Shown here piece by piece: positions 4,531 to 24,240 of a DNA stretch of 29,102 bases. The first letter of the stretch is position 1. Each line of letters starts with the position of its first letter. The DNA lies in IMG/VR virus record IMGVR_UViG_3300010885_022365, positions 1 through 29,102 of that record, one strand, 5' to 3'. Made by a program: the position numbers and the translations under genes. Origin of the DNA: a virus. The notes beneath the pieces are model-generated. The model did no database searches. It was not told the origin of the DNA and saw only the letters and a program-made list of their open reading frames with translations.

Positions 4531-5559
4531 TTAATTGGGTAACTCGTTAATATTAACACTACAAAATGCTTCTAATATCAATTGCCTAGTAATATCTTGC
4601 ACTCGGCTTTGATAGTAGTTTACTTCAAAAACTGCTTCTTTTTTCTTTCCAATAATATTATATTCAGGTTGCGTTACTTTTTGGTCTTGAATGATTGGTG
4701 TATTCATCAAGCCCATTACGCTATCATTATCTAATGTATATTGGAATACATAATTCATAAAGTCAATAGCCTGATTGTTATTTAATCCAAACATACTTAA
4801 TCGTACTGTATCTTTAGTCAATTGATAACTGCTAGATATGGAATTGATGTAAGTTGTTTGACCTAATGCCGTTGTTTGACTTGGCTCTATATGGGCGACT
4901 ATAAATGGTGGTATTTGATTTTGTGGCACTAAAAAACTTGGGTATATTGTAATAGGGCTTTTTAATGATAACCAAATAGGCAAACTGTTAGATACTGTTT
5001 GCGTGGCTAAATCTAAATCTTCCAATGTCTCAATGATTTGAGTAAACATAATGGAATAAAGAGTATCCCCACGATAATGCCATAATCCTGCTTGTTGATA
5101 GAATGGGATTCTTTCACTAAATCCAAATTTCAACATTCCACCTTCATGAGGATACGAACAAATATACATTTGTTGCGGATTCATGGTATTAAATGCCTGA
5201 ACAAAACTTAAAGAAGTAAAAATTGCATAGTTGTATGCCGTTGTTCTGTCTTCTAATTGGTGTATTTTGGTTGAATAATGCAATGAACCTTTTACTTGAA
5301 TACTTAAAGGTTGTGCTGTGTTATCAAATTTGATACCTTCATTGTATAAAGTCTCGTTATATTCAACTGAGTTAACCAATCCCTTGCTTTGCTGAATTAA
5401 ACTTGCATTTACCCAATATGCCATGCCATCAACAGGGCTAATTTTACGTTCATATAAATTAAATGTAAGTGTTTGATTAAGAGAAAGCGTATTAACACCT
5501 GCTTCAAGAGCAGATGCTAATGGAGTTTTTGATGCAACAGATTCTTCAAGAGTTGCCAT
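4531..5559 (-). CDS. Neck/tail-completion region structural protein, unknown
   Basis: This 342-residue protein starts at an ATG preceded by GGGTAGAAG and overlapping the end of the upstream gene by 14 bases, which suggests translational coupling. Aromatic- and Gln-rich sequence (LHYSTKIHQLEDRT, YICSYPHEGGMLKFGFSERIPFYQQ) and no signal peptide or membrane segment. It lies between an HK97 gp10-like gene and the sheath, where tail terminator or neck proteins are encoded. I do not recognise the family. A structural role is inferred from the operon only. Confidence 0.55.
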   Translation of the reverse strand: MATLEESVASKTPLASALEAGVNTLSLNQTLTFNLYERKISPVDGMAYWVNASLIQQSKGLVNSVEYNETLYNEGIKFDNTAQPLSIQVKGSLHYSTKIHQLEDRTTAYNYAIFTSLSFVQAFNTMNPQQMYICSYPHEGGMLKFGFSERIPFYQQAGLWHYRGDTLYSIMFTQIIETLEDLDLATQTVSNSLPIWLSLKSPITIYPSFLVPQNQIPPFIVAHIEPSQTTALGQTTYINSISSSYQLTKDTVRLSMFGLNNNQAIDFMNYVFQYTLDNDSVMGLMNTPIIQDQKVTQPEYNIIGKKKEAVFEVNYYQSRVQDITRQLILEAFCSVNINELPN

Positions 5560-5989
5560 CTTCTACCCAAGTTTTAATACTGTTTTGCAATGTACCTGTG
5601 TCAATAAAAGATGGTCTAGGTGGTCCTTTACGACCTTTAAATCGTCTTGAATATCCCATCTTACCTGCCATTGTTCGTGGTATTCCATGTTCTTCTTTAG
5701 AGATAAAATCTTTAAAATTTTGCTCTATTTCTTGCTCTGCGTCTGCGTAAGGATTTTTAACAGGCGAACCCATTAAGATGTCATCTAAAGCGTTACCTAG
5801 ACTCTCTGTAAGGCTATCTGCTATAAATTGTAGCCTCATTTCGCCATATTTACTAAATAATTCGTATTTGTTTTCAATAATATTGGCTAATTCAAAGGAG
5901 TTAAGATTACTCTCTGGCTCAGGAACAACAGTAACCCCAAGATTAAATTTCACGTTAAACCCCATAAAGTTCCGATAGCCTGCATCCAT
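5546..5989 (-). CDS. HK97 gp10-like head-tail joining/tail completion protein
   Basis: Up to 147 residues. The C-terminal signature RPSFIDTGTLQNSIKTWV resembles the end of HK97 gp10-type proteins, where a 'DTGxLxxSI' segment is typical; the middle is basic (GYSRRFKGRKG). Three starts are possible. The ATG at 5989 has AGG 7 bases upstream but overlaps the upstream gene by 40 bases. An ATG at 5965 follows GGA. A GTG at 5953 makes a 4-base GTGA overlap with the upstream stop and would begin VKFNLGVTVV. The longest is listed. It is expected to join head and tail. The family call is moderate. Confidence 0.58.
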   Translation of the reverse strand: MDAGYRNFMGFNVKFNLGVTVVPEPESNLNSFELANIIENKYELFSKYGEMRLQFIADSLTESLGNALDDILMGSPVKNPYADAEQEIEQNFKDFISKEEHGIPRTMAGKMGYSRRFKGRKGPPRPSFIDTGTLQNSIKTWVEDGNS

Positions 5990-6423
5990 GCCAAAGCCTG
6001 TCTTCCGTATGGGTCTTTGAGTCTTTCTAAGTCAGTCAAAGTTAAATTTTGCAATCCTTGACCTACTGCCATACTTTCACTTGTGCCTTGGTCAGATGCT
6101 GATGTAATAACACCTGCTACAAAATTACCTACACCAAAACTTGTTCTTGCAGATTGGAAGTAAGTGTTATTTGGTGGTTCGGCATTTGGATTATCCTGAC
6201 CATAATTAATAAGTACACTAGCCCCCCAATAATACACGCACAAAGTAGCAATTTGAGGAGACATTTGGGACATATATTCATAGGGAACTAACTGTAAGGC
6301 TACCTCGTAAGATACTTGATACTGAATGGAATCACTAGGCAAAACTTCTAAAGGGATGCCCACCACAGTTTGACAAAACTGAATATAACCTTCTAGCGTT
6401 GGCTTAGTGGGCAATACACTCAT
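5950..6423 (-). CDS. Head-tail connector/adaptor-like protein
   Basis: This 157-residue protein starts at an ATG that overlaps the stop of the previous gene (6420-6423). The N-terminal pattern (PTLEGYIQFCQTVVGIP, then YEVALQLVP and ATLCVYYWGASVLINYG) is mostly helical with a Gly/Ser-rich middle, as in gp6-like head completion or adaptor proteins that sit under the portal. The gene lies between the capsid module and the gp10-like gene, the usual adaptor position. No motif is diagnostic, so the role is inferred from order and size. Confidence 0.5.
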   Translation of the reverse strand: MSVLPTKPTLEGYIQFCQTVVGIPLEVLPSDSIQYQVSYEVALQLVPYEYMSQMSPQIATLCVYYWGASVLINYGQDNPNAEPPNNTYFQSARTSFGVGNFVAGVITSASDQGTSESMAVGQGLQNLTLTDLERLKDPYGRQALAWMQAIGTLWGLT

Positions 6424-6926
6424 GCTTTTGGTCTTCCTCTGCGTTTAGGCTCAATGCCATCTTTAGCAACAGTTATTGTCTGCTCAAACTTTTCTTCATT
6501 ATCACCGAAATTACGCTTTTCCTCAACAACTTCAATTTCTAAGTTAGCCTTTTGACGCAACCCTGATTCTTGAGCAACTCTACTAATAATTTGGTCATTA
6601 GCAACTGCTTGAATTTTGCGTACTTCTAATGCTCTATCAATAAAATCTTGCTCACTTTGCTTCATGCCTGATTCAATAGCAGATACAGAAATAGGCTTGT
6701 CAAAACGATAACATAAACCACTAAAACCTTTTGCAACTTTTGAAACTTCTGTAAATCCATATCGTTCATGTTGTCCTATGATGTAATTAAGAATATCAGA
6801 AGTGTTTTCAATTTCTACCTGACCACCTGCACGTATGGGTTTTGCAAATCTTTTGCTATTTTCAGGAATTGTGTATTCAAAAAAATTCTCCTGTTTTGTG
6901 CAATTAGCGATATATAACTTAGTCAT
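6420..6926 (-). CDS. Unknown capsid-region protein with basic C-terminus
   Basis: The start is placed at the ATG at 6926 (MTKLYIANC), 168 residues, because AAGGGA lies 6 bases upstream; an ATG at 6953 opens the same frame without a good site. The protein is charged and mostly helical in its second half (IQAVANDQIISRVAQESGLRQ) and ends in a basic KRRGRPKA tail, similar to an AT-hook core (RGRP). A short Cys-containing N-terminus could bind metal or be structural. It is downstream of the major capsid terminator and upstream of the connector gene. Function unknown. Confidence 0.55.
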   Translation of the reverse strand: MTKLYIANCTKQENFFEYTIPENSKRFAKPIRAGGQVEIENTSDILNYIIGQHERYGFTEVSKVAKGFSGLCYRFDKPISVSAIESGMKQSEQDFIDRALEVRKIQAVANDQIISRVAQESGLRQKANLEIEVVEEKRNFGDNEEKFEQTITVAKDGIEPKRRGRPKA

Positions 6927-6946
6927 TATTTTTCCCTTTGGGGTGA

Positions 6947-6984
6947 GTGGCACGGTGAAGTCCCCTTTTTACAGGGCATGCCAC
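6947..6984 (-). other. Inverted repeat in the 5' leader of the gene starting at 6926
   Basis: GTGGCA at 6947-6952 and TGCCAC at 6979-6984 form a 6-bp stem; within it CCCT (6963-6966) and AGGG (6973-6976) form a second. It lies between the capsid terminator and the ribosome site of the next gene, so it would be a structured 5' leader or an RNA processing site. No promoter is evident. Confidence 0.35.
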
Positions 6985-7073: not shown

Positions 7074-8102
7074 TTAACTTGCTGATGCTGACAAAATGGT
7101 TAATGCTTCAGGTCTGATAACCCATCCTGAAGTAGAACGCATTGTGTATAAAGTAGTAATACCACCATCTGCAATTGGTGTTGGAATTTCAGTAGGTGCT
7201 GAAACGTCAGTCAACATCAATGATGTAGCAGTTTGATTTGGTGTGAGTGTTGCAAAAATGTTGGTATTGATTGTGTTGTTTGCGTTCATCACTTTCAATT
7301 CAGGGGCAATTAAAATAATTGCATCTGTTCCACCTGCACCTGCACCAATGAGTGTATCGTCTACTGCAAATGATACATCATCACCACCTGACCACTTAGC
7401 AACAGTTTCTACTACACCTGCTGCGGTCTCTACACCTGCACCTATTCTTTGGAATTGTGTTAACTGAACAACTCCTGAATAAGAGATTTGGGTAATAAAG
7501 CGTTGTGGTGCTAAGAATACAAATCTTAATGGCTGACCAACTTGATATGTACGTTGCTTAAGTTGAGCAATCATGTTGAGCATATATTGTGCTAACTGAC
7601 CACTATCCCAATTTTCGTAACCAATAGAACCATTAGTATCTGCAGGCAATACCTGAGTAGTTGCACCGTTAGTGTTTAATAGACCTTCACCATTTGCAGG
7701 ATTGTATCCAAACAAAAGTGAGTTTCTTAACTGTTGTGCAATACCTTGACGAGCAGCGAGTCTCATGGCTTGTGGTAATGAATAATTCCAATTAGCAGTT
7801 GCTGATTCATCAAAGCCATCATACTGACTGCGTGTCTGCAATCTATATGTTGGTGTTGAAATCATACTAGGAATAACTGAAGCACTTGGCAAGTTGTTAG
7901 CCGTTGATTGATTAGCAGAAACCTGTGTGGTTAACTGAATCTTTTTAGCGTAAACATACAAATCACCTTCACCTAAACGTACCATTGGGTTTTCTGTAGC
8001 CAAAGTGCTGAAAGCACCTGAAGCCAAAGAATACTGCATGATGAGTTCAGGCATCATGTAATTTGGATTTACGGTGATATAACTAGGTGCGAATCCTGAC
8101 AT
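7074..8102 (-). CDS. Major capsid protein (DUF2184-like)
   Basis: This 342-residue protein starts at an ATG with a strong AAGGAG site. The sequence fits the DUF2184 phage capsid family: an N-terminal 'MMPELIMQY' segment, a beta-hinge region, RFVFLAPQRFITQISYSG in the middle, and a C-terminal domain ending in TTLYTMRSTSGWVIRPEALTIL. It has the usual length for an HK97-fold capsid of this group. A terminator follows directly, as expected for the most abundant structural protein. It is preceded by a putative decoration protein and the protease/scaffold polyprotein. The HK97 fold is inferred from family. Confidence 0.8.
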   Translation of the reverse strand: MSGFAPSYITVNPNYMMPELIMQYSLASGAFSTLATENPMVRLGEGDLYVYAKKIQLTTQVSANQSTANNLPSASVIPSMISTPTYRLQTRSQYDGFDESATANWNYSLPQAMRLAARQGIAQQLRNSLLFGYNPANGEGLLNTNGATTQVLPADTNGSIGYENWDSGQLAQYMLNMIAQLKQRTYQVGQPLRFVFLAPQRFITQISYSGVVQLTQFQRIGAGVETAAGVVETVAKWSGGDDVSFAVDDTLIGAGAGGTDAIILIAPELKVMNANNTINTNIFATLTPNQTATSLMLTDVSAPTEIPTPIADGGITTLYTMRSTSGWVIRPEALTILSASAS

Positions 8103-13380: not shown

Positions 13381-14658
13381 CTAGTAAGCAAATTTGTTAC
13401 CAACACCTAATGCAATAGCATACACAAAAGCATCAAGCAAGTCATCACTACGTTTATGAGCATCAGGGTCTCCAATACGAAACTGTGCTACTTGTGAGAG
13501 TAAATGATTACGAGTTGCCGTTTTAAATGATACAGTTTTATTGTAAGCGACATCGCTAATTTTACATAATTCTTGATGAAAATATCCTGAAACGCTAATC
13601 GCACGTTCATCTTTACCCTTACTTGTAAAATTATTAGGTATGCCTTCCATGTTCCAACCTCTGTTTTTGCCCTGTTGAAGCAAGATACTACCTGAGTTAA
13701 TATCTTCTACAAATGCACGGGTAAACCCTGACCTAGAATTACATTGTTCTGCTAATCGTTCTGCTCTGTAAAACACGCTGGGCATCCACGATTCAAGCAT
13801 AGCACCATCTATTTGCACTATATCCCAATCAAGTATGATAAGTTTAGGTTTAGGGTAAGAGATAAGAGCCATATAAATGACTGCAGTTCCATCATGCTCT
13901 TGTCCTCCTTTAACTGCCGTATCTAACACGCAATAGACTGCATCACAACGATATGGATAAGAAACAGGATTTCCATTCTCTAATAGTTTTGGTATGGCAA
14001 AGAACGCTATACCTGACCAATCAATAAACTCTGCTAAGTATTCTTGTTGAAAAACTAAGGGATGGTTTAGTTTACGTTCTTTCTCTAACTCATCTAATGG
14101 TACATAAGGGTTTGTGCTAGTAGGTGCGTAAAACTCGGTAAATCCCATTTCAGGGTCGTTGCAGATTCGCCAAAAGAAATTATCAGGGTCTAATCCATTC
14201 GGTGTCGAAAATACCCACGCTTTACCTCTTGTTGTCAACATAGTTGGCTTAATGGATTTCTGCCATATATCCAACATTTGTGGGGATTTAGTAAATGAAC
14301 CTTCGTCTATTAATACGTAATCGTATTCGTATCCTCGACCTGCAAGTTCATTATCGTTTAATCGCCAAAAGTCAATTGTGCCACCTGTCTTGGTTCGAAT
14401 CTTAACCATTTTGTTTTTATAGTTAATAGCATCGCCAATGTATTTAAGAATATGGTCATAGGGCTCACCCAACTGTCGATACTCAGGTGCAAAGATTCCG
14501 ACTGATTTACCTGCTAATGCTGACGAAGATGCAATGGTTTCTAATAGTCTAGTCTTTCCCCAACGTCTGCCACATCTAATAACATTTAATTGCTTTCTCG
14601 CTTTAAATACATCTACCTGTCCTGAATGCAGGGTTGGTAAGATAACTTCTATGTCCAT
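13381..14658 (-). CDS. terL: Terminase large subunit
   Basis: This 425-residue protein is the packaging ATPase and nuclease. The N-terminal motor shows Walker A GRRWGKT (about residues 30-36), an AP-EYRQLGEPYDHI region, Walker B YDYVLIDEGS (about 114-122) and the coupling motif FSTPNG (about 151-156). The C-terminal RNase H-like nuclease shows CVLDTAVKGG (Asp about 247), RAFVEDINSG (about 316-324) and KRSDDLLDAFVYA near the end, the expected acidic residues. The ATG overlaps the TerS stop by one base (TAATG), so the two are coupled. All hallmark motifs are intact. Confidence 0.95.
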   Translation of the reverse strand: MDIEVILPTLHSGQVDVFKARKQLNVIRCGRRWGKTRLLETIASSSALAGKSVGIFAPEYRQLGEPYDHILKYIGDAINYKNKMVKIRTKTGGTIDFWRLNDNELAGRGYEYDYVLIDEGSFTKSPQMLDIWQKSIKPTMLTTRGKAWVFSTPNGLDPDNFFWRICNDPEMGFTEFYAPTSTNPYVPLDELEKERKLNHPLVFQQEYLAEFIDWSGIAFFAIPKLLENGNPVSYPYRCDAVYCVLDTAVKGGQEHDGTAVIYMALISYPKPKLIILDWDIVQIDGAMLESWMPSVFYRAERLAEQCNSRSGFTRAFVEDINSGSILLQQGKNRGWNMEGIPNNFTSKGKDERAISVSGYFHQELCKISDVAYNKTVSFKTATRNHLLSQVAQFRIGDPDAHKRSDDLLDAFVYAIALGVGNKFAY

Positions 14659-21421: not shown

Positions 21422-21823
21422 TCAAATGTTTTCTTCATTAAAGATAACATCATTGTCGACCATCCATGCTTGAATCATTGTTATGTAATTAGTAAACTCT
21501 GCTACCGATAATTCGGTTGATGACATGGCAAGAGTTACACATTCGCCATCAGGAAGAGTAAATTCTTTTATTCCTATAAATCGTCTTTTAAAAAATTCTG
21601 CCCAAGTATCAGCACCTAAGTTTGTATGATTAACCAATAATTGGTCACTAATAGCATGTAGCATTTTCCAATACAGTTTGTTTTGTTCTAACCTACGCTT
21701 TACTTTTTCTCTTTGAAATGTAATGACATACCTATCTTCAGGAACTTCTGTCATTAACGAATGGATTTGAATAATTGCTTTGCGTAAATCATTTGGTGTT
21801 GCTATGAGTTTTTCGTATTTCAT
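21422..21823 (-). CDS. ninB: NinB-like recombination protein
   Basis: This 133-residue protein fits the NinB family: RRLEQNKLYWKMLHAISDQL (about residues 44-63), then GADTWAEFFKRRFIGIKEFTLPDGECV and MSSTELSVAEFTNYITMIQAWMVDNDVIF, the ninB-type core. NinB (Orf) binds single-stranded DNA and works with recombination mediators. The gene lies on the same arm as RusA, and the start overlaps the previous gene by 35 bases. Family call is good; the exact partner is unknown. Confidence 0.78.
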   Translation of the reverse strand: MKYEKLIATPNDLRKAIIQIHSLMTEVPEDRYVITFQREKVKRRLEQNKLYWKMLHAISDQLLVNHTNLGADTWAEFFKRRFIGIKEFTLPDGECVTLAMSSTELSVAEFTNYITMIQAWMVDNDVIFNEENI

Positions 21824-21992
21824 TAGGTCGTTTGTATTTAGTTTCTAAGTTTTTCATGCAGACATCATAATTCTTTTTAGAATCATTTTGGTAATTCTGT
21901 TCACATTCTTTAGAACAATATCCTTTAATTCGGTTAAGGATAAAATCTACTTTTAAGAATTGAAGCCCACATTTACATTTTTGGTATTTCAT
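21789..21992 (-). CDS. Small zinc-binding-type protein
   Basis: This 67-residue protein has four likely metal ligands: CKCG at residues 6-9 and YCSKEC at about 25-30, a compact CxC...CxxxC arrangement. The rest is basic and helical (KKNYDVCMKNLETKYKRPNEIRKTH). It overlaps NinB by 35 bases and the upstream gene by four. Lambda-like Nin regions contain similar small zinc proteins, but I cannot assign one. DNA binding is plausible. Confidence 0.5.
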   Translation of the reverse strand: MKYQKCKCGLQFLKVDFILNRIKGYCSKECEQNYQNDSKKNYDVCMKNLETKYKRPNEIRKTHSNTK

Positions 21993-22543: not shown

Positions 22544-22660
22544 AAAAAAAACCTTTAAATAGATTCCGTGTTCTCACCCCCACACTAATTGTCTATAGTG
22601 GGGCACAGAACCTAATTAAAGGTCTTTACACAGGGTGAGAATCTGCTTATTTGTATATTA
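22544..22660 (-). ncRNA. Structured RNA / attenuator with interleaved helices and terminator (RNA-2)
   Basis: Downstream of a promoter the minus-strand RNA (about 105-110 bases) contains these elements in order. X' (22628-22644) is followed by S (ACCTTTAA, 22616-22623). A central hairpin comes next (GTTCT/AGAAC with CCCC/GGGG, 22570-22611). X (22561-22571) and S' (TTAAAGGT, 22551-22558) follow, then eight Us (22544-22551). X' pairs with X (AGATTC/GAATCT plus CCTGTGT/ACACGG) and S with S', which are interleaved and so compete or form a pseudoknot. A 9-bp alternative TTCTCACCC/GGGTGAGAA also exists. Seen in sequence; function inferred. Confidence 0.6.
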
Positions 22661-22683
22661 TAACTATTTTATCCTTTTGTCAA
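22655..22683 (-). promoter_or_regulatory. Promoter P3 (minus) for RNA-2
   Basis: TTGACA (22678-22683) followed by TAATAT at 17-base spacing (22655-22660), or TATAAT at 15 (22657-22662). The following bases ATACAAATAAGCAG resemble the start of the P2 transcript. It overlaps the last codons of the ATPase gene. Confidence 0.7.
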
Positions 22684-22690
22684 CACTTTT

Positions 22691-23545
22691 TTAAATATCT
22701 TTTTCAACTTCCCCAAAATATTTGACAGGTTCTTTTTTAGGAAATGTAATGATTTTGGGTATTTCAACTGTTACCTTGTTTAAGAACACTTCTCGTTCTT
22801 TGGTAATATGAAATGTTGTATCTTGAACAACACCTCTTGATTTGCCACCTTTATCTGTGTTGGCCGTGCAAAGAACATCACTACTGCCATCTGCGTGTTT
22901 TTGTTGAATAAGGTAAATAAGTTCGTCAAAGTCATTGCGTAAATCGCTTGTACCCTCGTAAATGGGATTACCATCTTCGTCTTTAAACTTGTTGGTGTGA
23001 CTTGCACAAATGATGCTCATGCCTTTAAGTGTGCATTTGCGTAATATTTTGTTAAATTCTACGATTAAGCGTTTATCCATAACTGAGGTAAACTTTTTAA
23101 GCGTATCTAATATGACGACTGTTTTGCCATAATCTGCTTTACCATTACCTACGGCTTTTAACCATTCAATAACCTTTTCAATTCCATGCCCTGTCATATC
23201 AGGATTAATTAATTTATAACCATGTTTATCTGCATGAGCAAAATAATATTTCATGTCTGATGCTGATGCGTCTACGTTAATGTAAGCAACTTTATAACCT
23301 CGTTGTACCATTTCAGTACAACAGAAATTTAAAAGGGTCGTTTTACCAACTCCTGCTTCTGAACAAAATAATGTCATGTGTGAATGTATAAAAAGTTTTT
23401 GGAATAAATGTTTGGTGTTTTCAATGTTCTTAACATGCTTCTCTGTAATTTCCATCTGCTCTAATTGTGCAAAAGGATTGTTTTGATGCTCATGTTCTTT
23501 TTGTAATTGTTGAAAATTTATTGTATCTTTTACTAAGTTTTCCAT
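22691..23545 (-). CDS. RecA/RepA-like AAA ATPase (replication-initiation type)
   Basis: This 284-residue ATPase carries Walker A CSEAGVGKTT (about residues 61-70), Walker B KTVVILDTLKKF (about 141-152), and the following motif GMSIICASHTNKFKDEDGNP (sensor-like His/Asn), then TSDLRNDFDELIYLIQ. The fold resembles RepA/KaiC-type hexameric ATPases that phages use for replication or recombination. An N-terminal helical extension (1-55) may bind a partner. The start overlaps the upstream gene by 13 bases. It is the likely replication motor of this arm; a specific helicase role is inferred. Confidence 0.75.
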   Translation of the reverse strand: MENLVKDTINFQQLQKEHEHQNNPFAQLEQMEITEKHVKNIENTKHLFQKLFIHSHMTLFCSEAGVGKTTLLNFCCTEMVQRGYKVAYINVDASASDMKYYFAHADKHGYKLINPDMTGHGIEKVIEWLKAVGNGKADYGKTVVILDTLKKFTSVMDKRLIVEFNKILRKCTLKGMSIICASHTNKFKDEDGNPIYEGTSDLRNDFDELIYLIQQKHADGSSDVLCTANTDKGGKSRGVVQDTTFHITKEREVFLNKVTVEIPKIITFPKKEPVKYFGEVEKDI

Positions 23546-23862: not shown

Positions 23863-24000
23863 AAAAAAATCCTAGTTGAGAAAACGATTCGGCAAGTGTC
23901 CGACCTGTTTTACTAAACCTACTCTCGTTTAATAAAACAGACTTACCTACTACATTTTCTCAACTAGGACTTTTCGTGTCGGACTCACTTTGTCTAATTG
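23863..24000 (-). ncRNA. Leader RNA-1: attenuator with terminator helix over the ribosome site
   Basis: The minus-strand RNA (about 140 bases) has in order: X' (23978-23990), S (TCCTAGTTGAGAAAA, 23955-23969), a hairpin CTGTTTTA/TAAAACAG plus GTTTA/TAAAC with 8-base loop (23905-23940), X (23894-23904), S' (23870-23884), seven Us and then the ATG of the gene at 23862. S and S' are perfectly complementary over 15 bp, an intrinsic terminator that also buries the AGGA ribosome site. X' and X pair over 11 bp with a 2-base bulge (AAGTG, TCCGAC). The two helices interleave, so they exclude each other or form a pseudoknot. Looks like a switch. Confidence 0.72.
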
Positions 24001-24008
24001 ATAGTATA

Positions 24009-24037
24009 ACTATAAACTACTTTTTTACTTTTGTCAA
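24009..24037 (-). promoter_or_regulatory. Promoter P4 (minus) for leader RNA-1
   Basis: TTGACA (24032-24037), 17-base spacer, TATAGT (24009-24014). Expected start near 24002, which places the whole switch inside the transcript. It overlaps the end of the regulator gene. Confidence 0.72.
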
Positions 24038-24240
24038 ATATCTGCTTCAGAACCATAAATTTCAGGACTCAGTTCAAATCTGCTAACTCCTGACATTTGC
24101 TCAATTCTTAATATGTAATGTGCAGGTATTCTGCCATTTTTTGCCCAAGCGTAAATAGCGGCTCGAGTTAATCCTAATTCTCTTGCCAACTGTGCTTTGC
24201 CAATAATTCGTAATGCTTTTTCAATTGGGGTTAAATACAT
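24034..24240 (-). CDS. Cro/YdaS-like repressor
   Basis: This 68-residue protein starts at an ATG with AGGA 7 bases upstream. Residues 16-36 form a classic HTH: AQLARELGLTRAAIYAWAKNG, followed by RIPAHYILRIEQMSGVSRFELSPEIYG, the ending of the Cro/YdaS (YdaS_antitoxin-type) family. It is the first leftward gene of the divergent control region, the position of phage Cro-type regulators. It presumably binds operators between 24.24 and 24.51 kb and perhaps the TATAGC sites. No CI-like repressor is visible beside it. Confidence 0.78.
   Translation of the reverse strand: MYLTPIEKALRIIGKAQLARELGLTRAAIYAWAKNGRIPAHYILRIEQMSGVSRFELSPEIYGSEADI

Follow-up and report, generated by a model that had tools for sequence, protein, structure and literature searches.

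A predicted phage small RNA gene with a constant terminator scaffold and an exchangeable loop-bulge pair

Layout of the RNA2 locus

Is the short terminator-ended unit behind the ATPase gene of this phage a leader of the next gene or an RNA gene of its own, and what is its long-range pairing for? The window, meaning the whole 29,102-nucleotide stretch analysed here, is an uncultured phage record in IMG/VR, of the temperate, lambda-like type. The unit, RNA2, lies 3′ of the ATPase gene and 270 nt 5′ of a 99-aa ORF (Table 1).

As listed in Table 1, the minimum-energy fold of RNA2 consists of the small P0 hairpin and, after it, a single long hairpin whose 3′ side has a 7-nt bulge; this bulge, K, is the exact complement of the P0 loop. 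The long-range pairing is a 9-bp one (TTCTCACCC/GGGTGAGAA) from the P0 loop to this bulge in the terminator hairpin. Exact copies of GGTGAGAA are confined, within the window, to the two arms of RNA2. The first-pass annotation of this locus stands in part. The sigma-70-like promoter that it assigned to the transcript, the S/S′ stem (ACCTTTAA/TTAAAGGT, directly 5′ of the U8), the inner hairpin, and the 9-bp pairing are all present, but its primary pairing, X′/X, is not supported. In the minimum-energy fold, GAATCT and ACACGG have the adjacent strand TAGGTTCTGTG as their partner. In six homologues, AGATTC/GAATCT shows no informative variation (one G-U change, in L376), and CCTGTGT/ACACGG is replaced in the other five by CTGTAT/ACATAG with an A-C mismatch, so that it is broken in five of six. 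The 9-bp pairing had been ranked as an alternative fold; with three compensated types, it is rather the pairing that evolution maintains.

RNA2 would be transcribed from the sigma-70 promoter, beginning at P0 and ending at the U8. The probable order of folding is P0, the inner hairpin, the pairing of the bulge with the P0 loop, and finally the scaffold (S, M, and inner stem), closing at the U-tract. Since S′, the last strand, is made after K, loop and bulge can pair co-transcriptionally in one molecule. A strict geometric exclusion between K/K′ and S/S′ was considered and withdrawn for RNA2, since the 7-nt linker and P0 could roughly span the 19-bp scaffold; it stays likely for RNA1.

Table 1. 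Features of the window and of the related loci
Feature	Sequence	Position	Strand	Remark
Sigma-70-like promoter TTGACA-17-TAATAT	window	22655–22683	minus	−10 ends 8 nt before P0
RNA2, predicted free sRNA, ~105 nt	window	22544–22650	minus	predicted 5′ end near 22650, 3′ end in U-tract
P0 hairpin GCAG[AUUCUCACC]CUGU	window	22630–22646	minus	loop holds variable pairing sequence K′
Scaffold helix, 5′ strand	window	22604–22622	minus	S CCTTTAAT 22622–22615, then M TAGGTTCTGTG 22614–22604
Inner hairpin, variable stem	window	22578–22603	minus	apical loop motif UARACA kept in 6/6
7-nt bulge K (GUGAGAA)	window	22571–22577	minus	pairs with P0 loop
Scaffold helix, 3′ strand	window	22552–22570	minus	M CACGGAATCTA, then S′ TTTAAAGG
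U8 tract of intrinsic terminator	window	22544–22551	minus	
RNA1, same architecture as RNA2	window	23863–24002	minus	P0 GUG[AGUCCGA]CAC, ~20-bp outer stem
RNA1 bulge GUCGGAC	window	23904–23898		pairs with GUCCGAC 23984–23978 (loop AGUCCGA + first C of stem)
RNA1 promoter	window	24037–24009	minus	11/12 match
RNA3	window	7013–6940	minus	between major-capsid-type gene 7074–8102 and ORF 6420–6953
YdaS/Cro-like gene	window	24034–24240	minus	
AAA ATPase gene	window	22691–23545	minus	
NinB gene	window	21422–21823	minus	
Large terminase gene	window	13381–14658	minus	
ERF/RecE-like recombination genes	window		plus	
CxC zinc-finger-like protein	window	21789–21992	minus	
CxC zinc-finger-like protein	L310	11548–11733	minus	
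CxC zinc-finger-like protein	L379	3890–4072	plus	
RNA2 homologue	L310	11510–11403	minus	
RNA2 homologue	L324	5958–6063	plus	
RNA2 homologue	L375	490–381	minus	
RNA2 homologue	L379	4105–4214	plus	
RNA2 homologue	L376			= L390 12568–12464, minus
Terminator hairpin, loop-bulge topology, other sequence	L141 (groundwater contig)	5480–5578	plus	3′ of NinG gene, U8 adjoins ATG
Terminator hairpin, loop-bulge topology, other sequence	L168 (Pantoea phage PdC23)	37150–37271	plus	5′ of roi-like gene

Homologues and the exchangeable pair

IMG/VR was searched twice. The first search required both arms at an appropriate spacing; of the 66 loci that it gave, two (L310 and L324) were true homologues. The second, in which the M helix and the GAA end of the bulge were fixed and the 5′ loop was not, gave three more. 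With RNA2, the family has six sequences, all from uncultured phages. Each has P0, a linker, S (8 bp), M (11 bp), a variable inner stem with the UARACA loop, and a U-tract, which is U6 or longer in all five relatives. The best −10-like hexamer ends 8–10 nt 5′ of P0 in every member, which places the expected start of the RNA at P0 or immediately upstream of it. RNA2, L324, and L376 each have a good promoter match (10/12); that of L310 and L379 is moderate (9/12), and L375 has a weak one (8/12).

The gene contexts differ. In L310 and L379, the RNA gene lies 3′ of a terminase gene and a small gene for a CxC zinc-finger-like protein; in L375 it lies 3′ of a terminase gene, and in L324 and L376 it is intergenic. 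There is no conserved downstream gene in the family, and about 160–270 nt of non-coding DNA follow the RNA in RNA2, L310, L324, and L376. Since the flanking genes differ across the homologues, a free sRNA gene fits better than the leader of one gene. RNA2 is thus probably a stand-alone sRNA gene, as had been suggested from the distance to the next ORF: family members have their own promoter-like site and terminator, independent of a fixed neighbour, which is the gene layout of a trans-acting sRNA. In L310 (11398–11345, minus), visual inspection suggests a further hairpin and T-rich tail (AAACATAA...TTATGTTTTCTTTTT) 3′ of the sRNA, as if the unit were insulated, and L375 looks similar. The zinc-finger-like protein (60–67 aa, CxC...C...C motif) is encoded near or directly 5′ of the RNA2-type gene in three phages, with 47–64% identity among the copies. 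The window copy had no Pfam or PHROG match. It is possibly a partner protein of the RNA.

The K′/K pair comes in three types: UUCUCAC/GUGAGAA in RNA2, L310, and L324; UUCGACAC/GUGUCGAA in L375 and L379; and UUCAAGC/GCUUGAA in L376. It pairs without mismatch in all six sequences, and where the loop carries a one-base insertion, the bulge carries one too. Because the second search did not fix the 5′ loop, the complementarity in L375, L379, and L376 is an independent test, and it was perfect, with two new sequences and the matched length change. Between L310 and L379, all 46 scaffold-helix bases are identical, whereas the K pair and the inner stem differ; between L324 and L376, 221 of 255 aligned downstream positions agree, while K differs. 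Loop-bulge duplexes of one type have calculated energies of −7.5 to −10.3 kcal/mol, as against −0.5 to −2.1 kcal/mol for cross-type duplexes. Over the full structure, 96.6% of cells are paired and six pairs have changed on both sides; neither value was reached in 500 shuffles. P0 is paired in all six, with one-sided changes (G-U/A-U, A-U/G-U), and double changes are found at four of the eight counted pairs of the inner hairpin. Thus, the refutation that the annotation had named, helices not conserved in relatives, does not apply to the loop-bulge pairing, which is kept. No family contig has a second K site. A second K′ site is found only in L324, where one further exact copy of the loop sequence (TTCTCACC) at about 693 is a possible trans site. 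On these sequence comparisons, I regard the gene layout, the homologues, the covariation, and the orthogonality of the addresses as shown with high confidence. The diversity of K could also come from a structure-only constraint.

A covariance model of the family, R1, matches RNA2 at 22650–22543 (101.6 bits, E 6e-19) and finds all six members at E 6e-19 or better, by construction, since these are its training sequences. It found no additional member in the other loci searched and none in a shallow sample of 1,064 bacterial genomes, searched with strict filters. The L310 query had no match in INPHARED or PLSDB. The RNA was absent from the stretches read of Caudoviricetes sp. MW202545 and Caulobacter phage GB2A, terminase relatives of L375. 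Searching viral_contigs with one protein at a time (ATPase, 109-aa, DUF932, and NinB) gave no relatives, and a NinB-guided search of bacterial genomes had a low yield. TerL-guided loci and whole records contained no RNA2 homologue; RNA3 and the L141 and PdC23 units turned up there.

RNA1 and other loop-bulge units

Is the architecture repeated in this phage? Both strands of the full 29-kb window were scanned blindly for a hairpin with a 6–9-nt 3′-side bulge complementary to the upstream RNA. Exactly two sites were found, RNA1 and RNA2 (scores 19 and 20), while seven control scans, in which the upstream tail was shuffled or reversed, gave one hit in total (score 17). Thus, the common architecture, which the annotation had noticed in the same two RNAs, holds. 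The U7 of RNA1 adjoins the ATG of a 109-aa ORF. The promoter regions of RNA1 (24037–24003) and RNA2 (22683–22648), both on the minus strand, are alike (TTGACAAAAG.A...ATAGTTATA.TAT), which hints at a common promoter type or an origin by duplication. Beyond the promoter, RNA1 and RNA2 have no common sequence, and their pairing sequences differ. One covariance model for both RNAs had been proposed as a check; R1 finds the six members of the RNA2 family and leaves RNA1 unmatched at E ≤ 10. Thus, neither one sequence family nor one shared regulator is supported, and of the earlier alternative between a shared regulator and a new phage RNA family, the second is retained.

A scan for terminator-linked loop-bulge units was extended to 3.0 Mb of phage and prophage DNA, with three controls over the same sequence; Escherichia phage Rac-SA53 (L169), which carries toxin genes, was left out of the scans. 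At a score of at least 23, it was found that RNA2, the L141 contig, and Pantoea phage PdC23 have such a unit, and the three controls have no site. RNA1 alone is less certain at this scale because its score of 19 was also reached by controls. In PdC23, a short spacer separates the U-tract from the gene start. RNA1 and the L141 and PdC23 units may be leaders that have only the topology in common with the RNA2 family. The same scanner found no loop-bulge architecture in the HK022 and Gifsy-1 regions. A proposed association of the RNA with roi/antirepressor genes was abandoned, as 1.06 Mb of Roi-centred sequence had no convincing site.

RNA3 has the loop-bulge topology of RNA2 without a terminator and is absent from Rfam. 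The loop of its hairpin CCC[AAGUGAAGAU]GGG pairs with the bulge CUUCAC of the next hairpin, directly 5′ of the start codon. RNA3 is kept in 12 related phage contigs, with a GUGAUGC/GCAUCA pair instead and strongly covarying stems.

Readings of the pair and relation to known systems

With a probability of about 0.5, I take RNA2 to be a self-contained phage sRNA gene that would be transcribed and recognise its own kind through K/K′ in trans. The reason for reading K/K′ as an address rather than a mere lock is that the pair is exchanged as a unit on a scaffold that is almost invariant. The finished RNA2 may use both arms to pair with other copies, K/K′ being a private, self-matching address on a constant scaffold that is probably held by a protein. 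RNA2 would then fold on itself and bind nascent or finished sibling transcripts, resulting in a self-specific control, either autoregulation or immunity to related phages.

The main rival, somewhat doubtful in my view, is a lock that acts only in cis. K/K′ would serve folding or stability within the molecule, the terminator-ended sRNA would regulate other mRNAs, and K would be free as long as it is paired. Such a lock is consistent with a K/K′ pair that can be reached within one molecule before S′ is made, with compensatory changes, which are typical of any conserved helix, and with the family contigs, which offer no other K site and the single other K′ site in L324. However, neutral compensatory drift should also touch the 19-bp scaffold, and between L310 and L379 it has left all 46 bases untouched while K was replaced as a block.

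The two other functional readings are less likely than the lock. It is unlikely that RNA2 is a cis attenuator, in which K/K′ competes with the S/S′ terminator and a signal allows readthrough into the downstream genes. The interleaved order K′-S-hairpin-K-S′ would suit it, and the same order is found in RNA1, L141, and PdC23, where the U-tract adjoins an ATG (RNA1 and L141) or precedes a gene after a short spacer (PdC23). The RNA2 family instead has the non-coding stretches and the variable downstream genes described above, and L310 seems to have another hairpin with a T-rich tail next. A head-to-tail multimer, in which K′ of one RNA pairs with K of the next, perhaps for packaging, with addresses that separate co-infecting phages, is more doubtful still. 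Each RNA has two complementary arms of orthogonal types, the gene lies just 3′ of the large terminase gene in L310, L375, and L379, and loop-bulge and loop-loop homo-oligomers are known from bicoid and phi29 pRNA (PMC7357161). In the window, however, RNA2 lies some 8 kb from the large terminase gene and has neither a match to the Rfam pRNA model nor a three-way junction. No use of RNA in packaging is known for phages of this kind, which also counts against the multimer. An ordinary terminator with long-range matches by chance is highly improbable: promoter-like and terminator-like sites in the RNA2 region are not enriched over shuffles, but five homologues, three compensated pair types, and the scan controls contradict it.

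Does RNA2 belong to a known system? Among 4227 Rfam families, including Phage_pRNA, none matches RNA1 or RNA2 in the window, and scans of the window, L141, part of PdC23, and the P4 leader gave no family for them. The best sub-threshold hits, L20_leader and TtnuHACA9, were judged to be chance. The C4, isrK, and c4-a1b1 models have no match in the window; as a positive control, the same search finds all three in the P4 leader. It is thus supported that the RNA2 family is a new phage RNA family, in none of the tested Rfam families, with a function that I infer.

The P4 CI/C4 immunity RNA with the isrK/seqA leader (RF01695, RF01394, RF03163) is, like RNA2, a short phage unit with self-unit pairing and a terminator-ended short RNA. 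Its pairing core GUGAGAA/UUCUCAC is the 7-mer of RNA2, by coincidence or descent. Descent is kept as a lead and is not claimed because the probability of a 10-nt match arising by chance between sequences of about 100 and 200 nt is estimated at about 2%. P4 has its target (seqA) and its antisense (CI/C4) on distinct RNAs arranged in series, whereas RNA2 has both arms in one RNA, interleaved with the terminator stem. A separate antisense RNA pairing with leader sites upstream and downstream, as in P4, was not found in the window. RNA2 may thus work like the P4 immunity system while being a non-member. IsrK of prophage Gifsy-1, which works as an sRNA and also forms the beginning of a longer mRNA, resembles RNA2 in its phage promoter and its short intrinsic-terminator RNA in a phage operon (PMC4825925), but its fold is different, and the scanner found no loop-bulge complementarity around its locus. 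In the phi29 pRNA (Rfam Phage_pRNA), too, two unpaired, self-complementary elements can link copies in a head-to-tail manner, though these are two hairpin loops on a three-way junction, while RNA2 has a loop and a bulge on one terminator hairpin. In domain III of the bicoid mRNA 3′UTR, an apical loop is complementary to the RNA's own internal bulge, so that closed or open dimers can form; this is a eukaryotic mRNA, unrelated in sequence and context (PMC7357161 for both).

Among these analogies, self-specific control of its own kind, in the manner of the P4 CI/C4 RNA, seems the likeliest role for RNA2. Tentatively, K/K′ may be a phage-specific trans address by which copies identify one another, or a nascent transcript from an incoming relative, selected to differ between related phages. 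This would be an RNA-only self/non-self system in one molecule of about 100 nt, and this phage would have two such addresses, independent of each other, in RNA1 and RNA2. Since the address is 7–8 nt long and exists in three orthogonal versions on near-identical scaffolds, a loop swap can directly distinguish cis from trans pairing and measure specificity. Few phage sRNAs have a clear evolutionary signature of their pairing mode, and a constant scaffold with an exchangeable, self-matching address is what would be expected where RNAs tell their own kind from relatives, as in P4 immunity, plasmid copy control, and pRNA.
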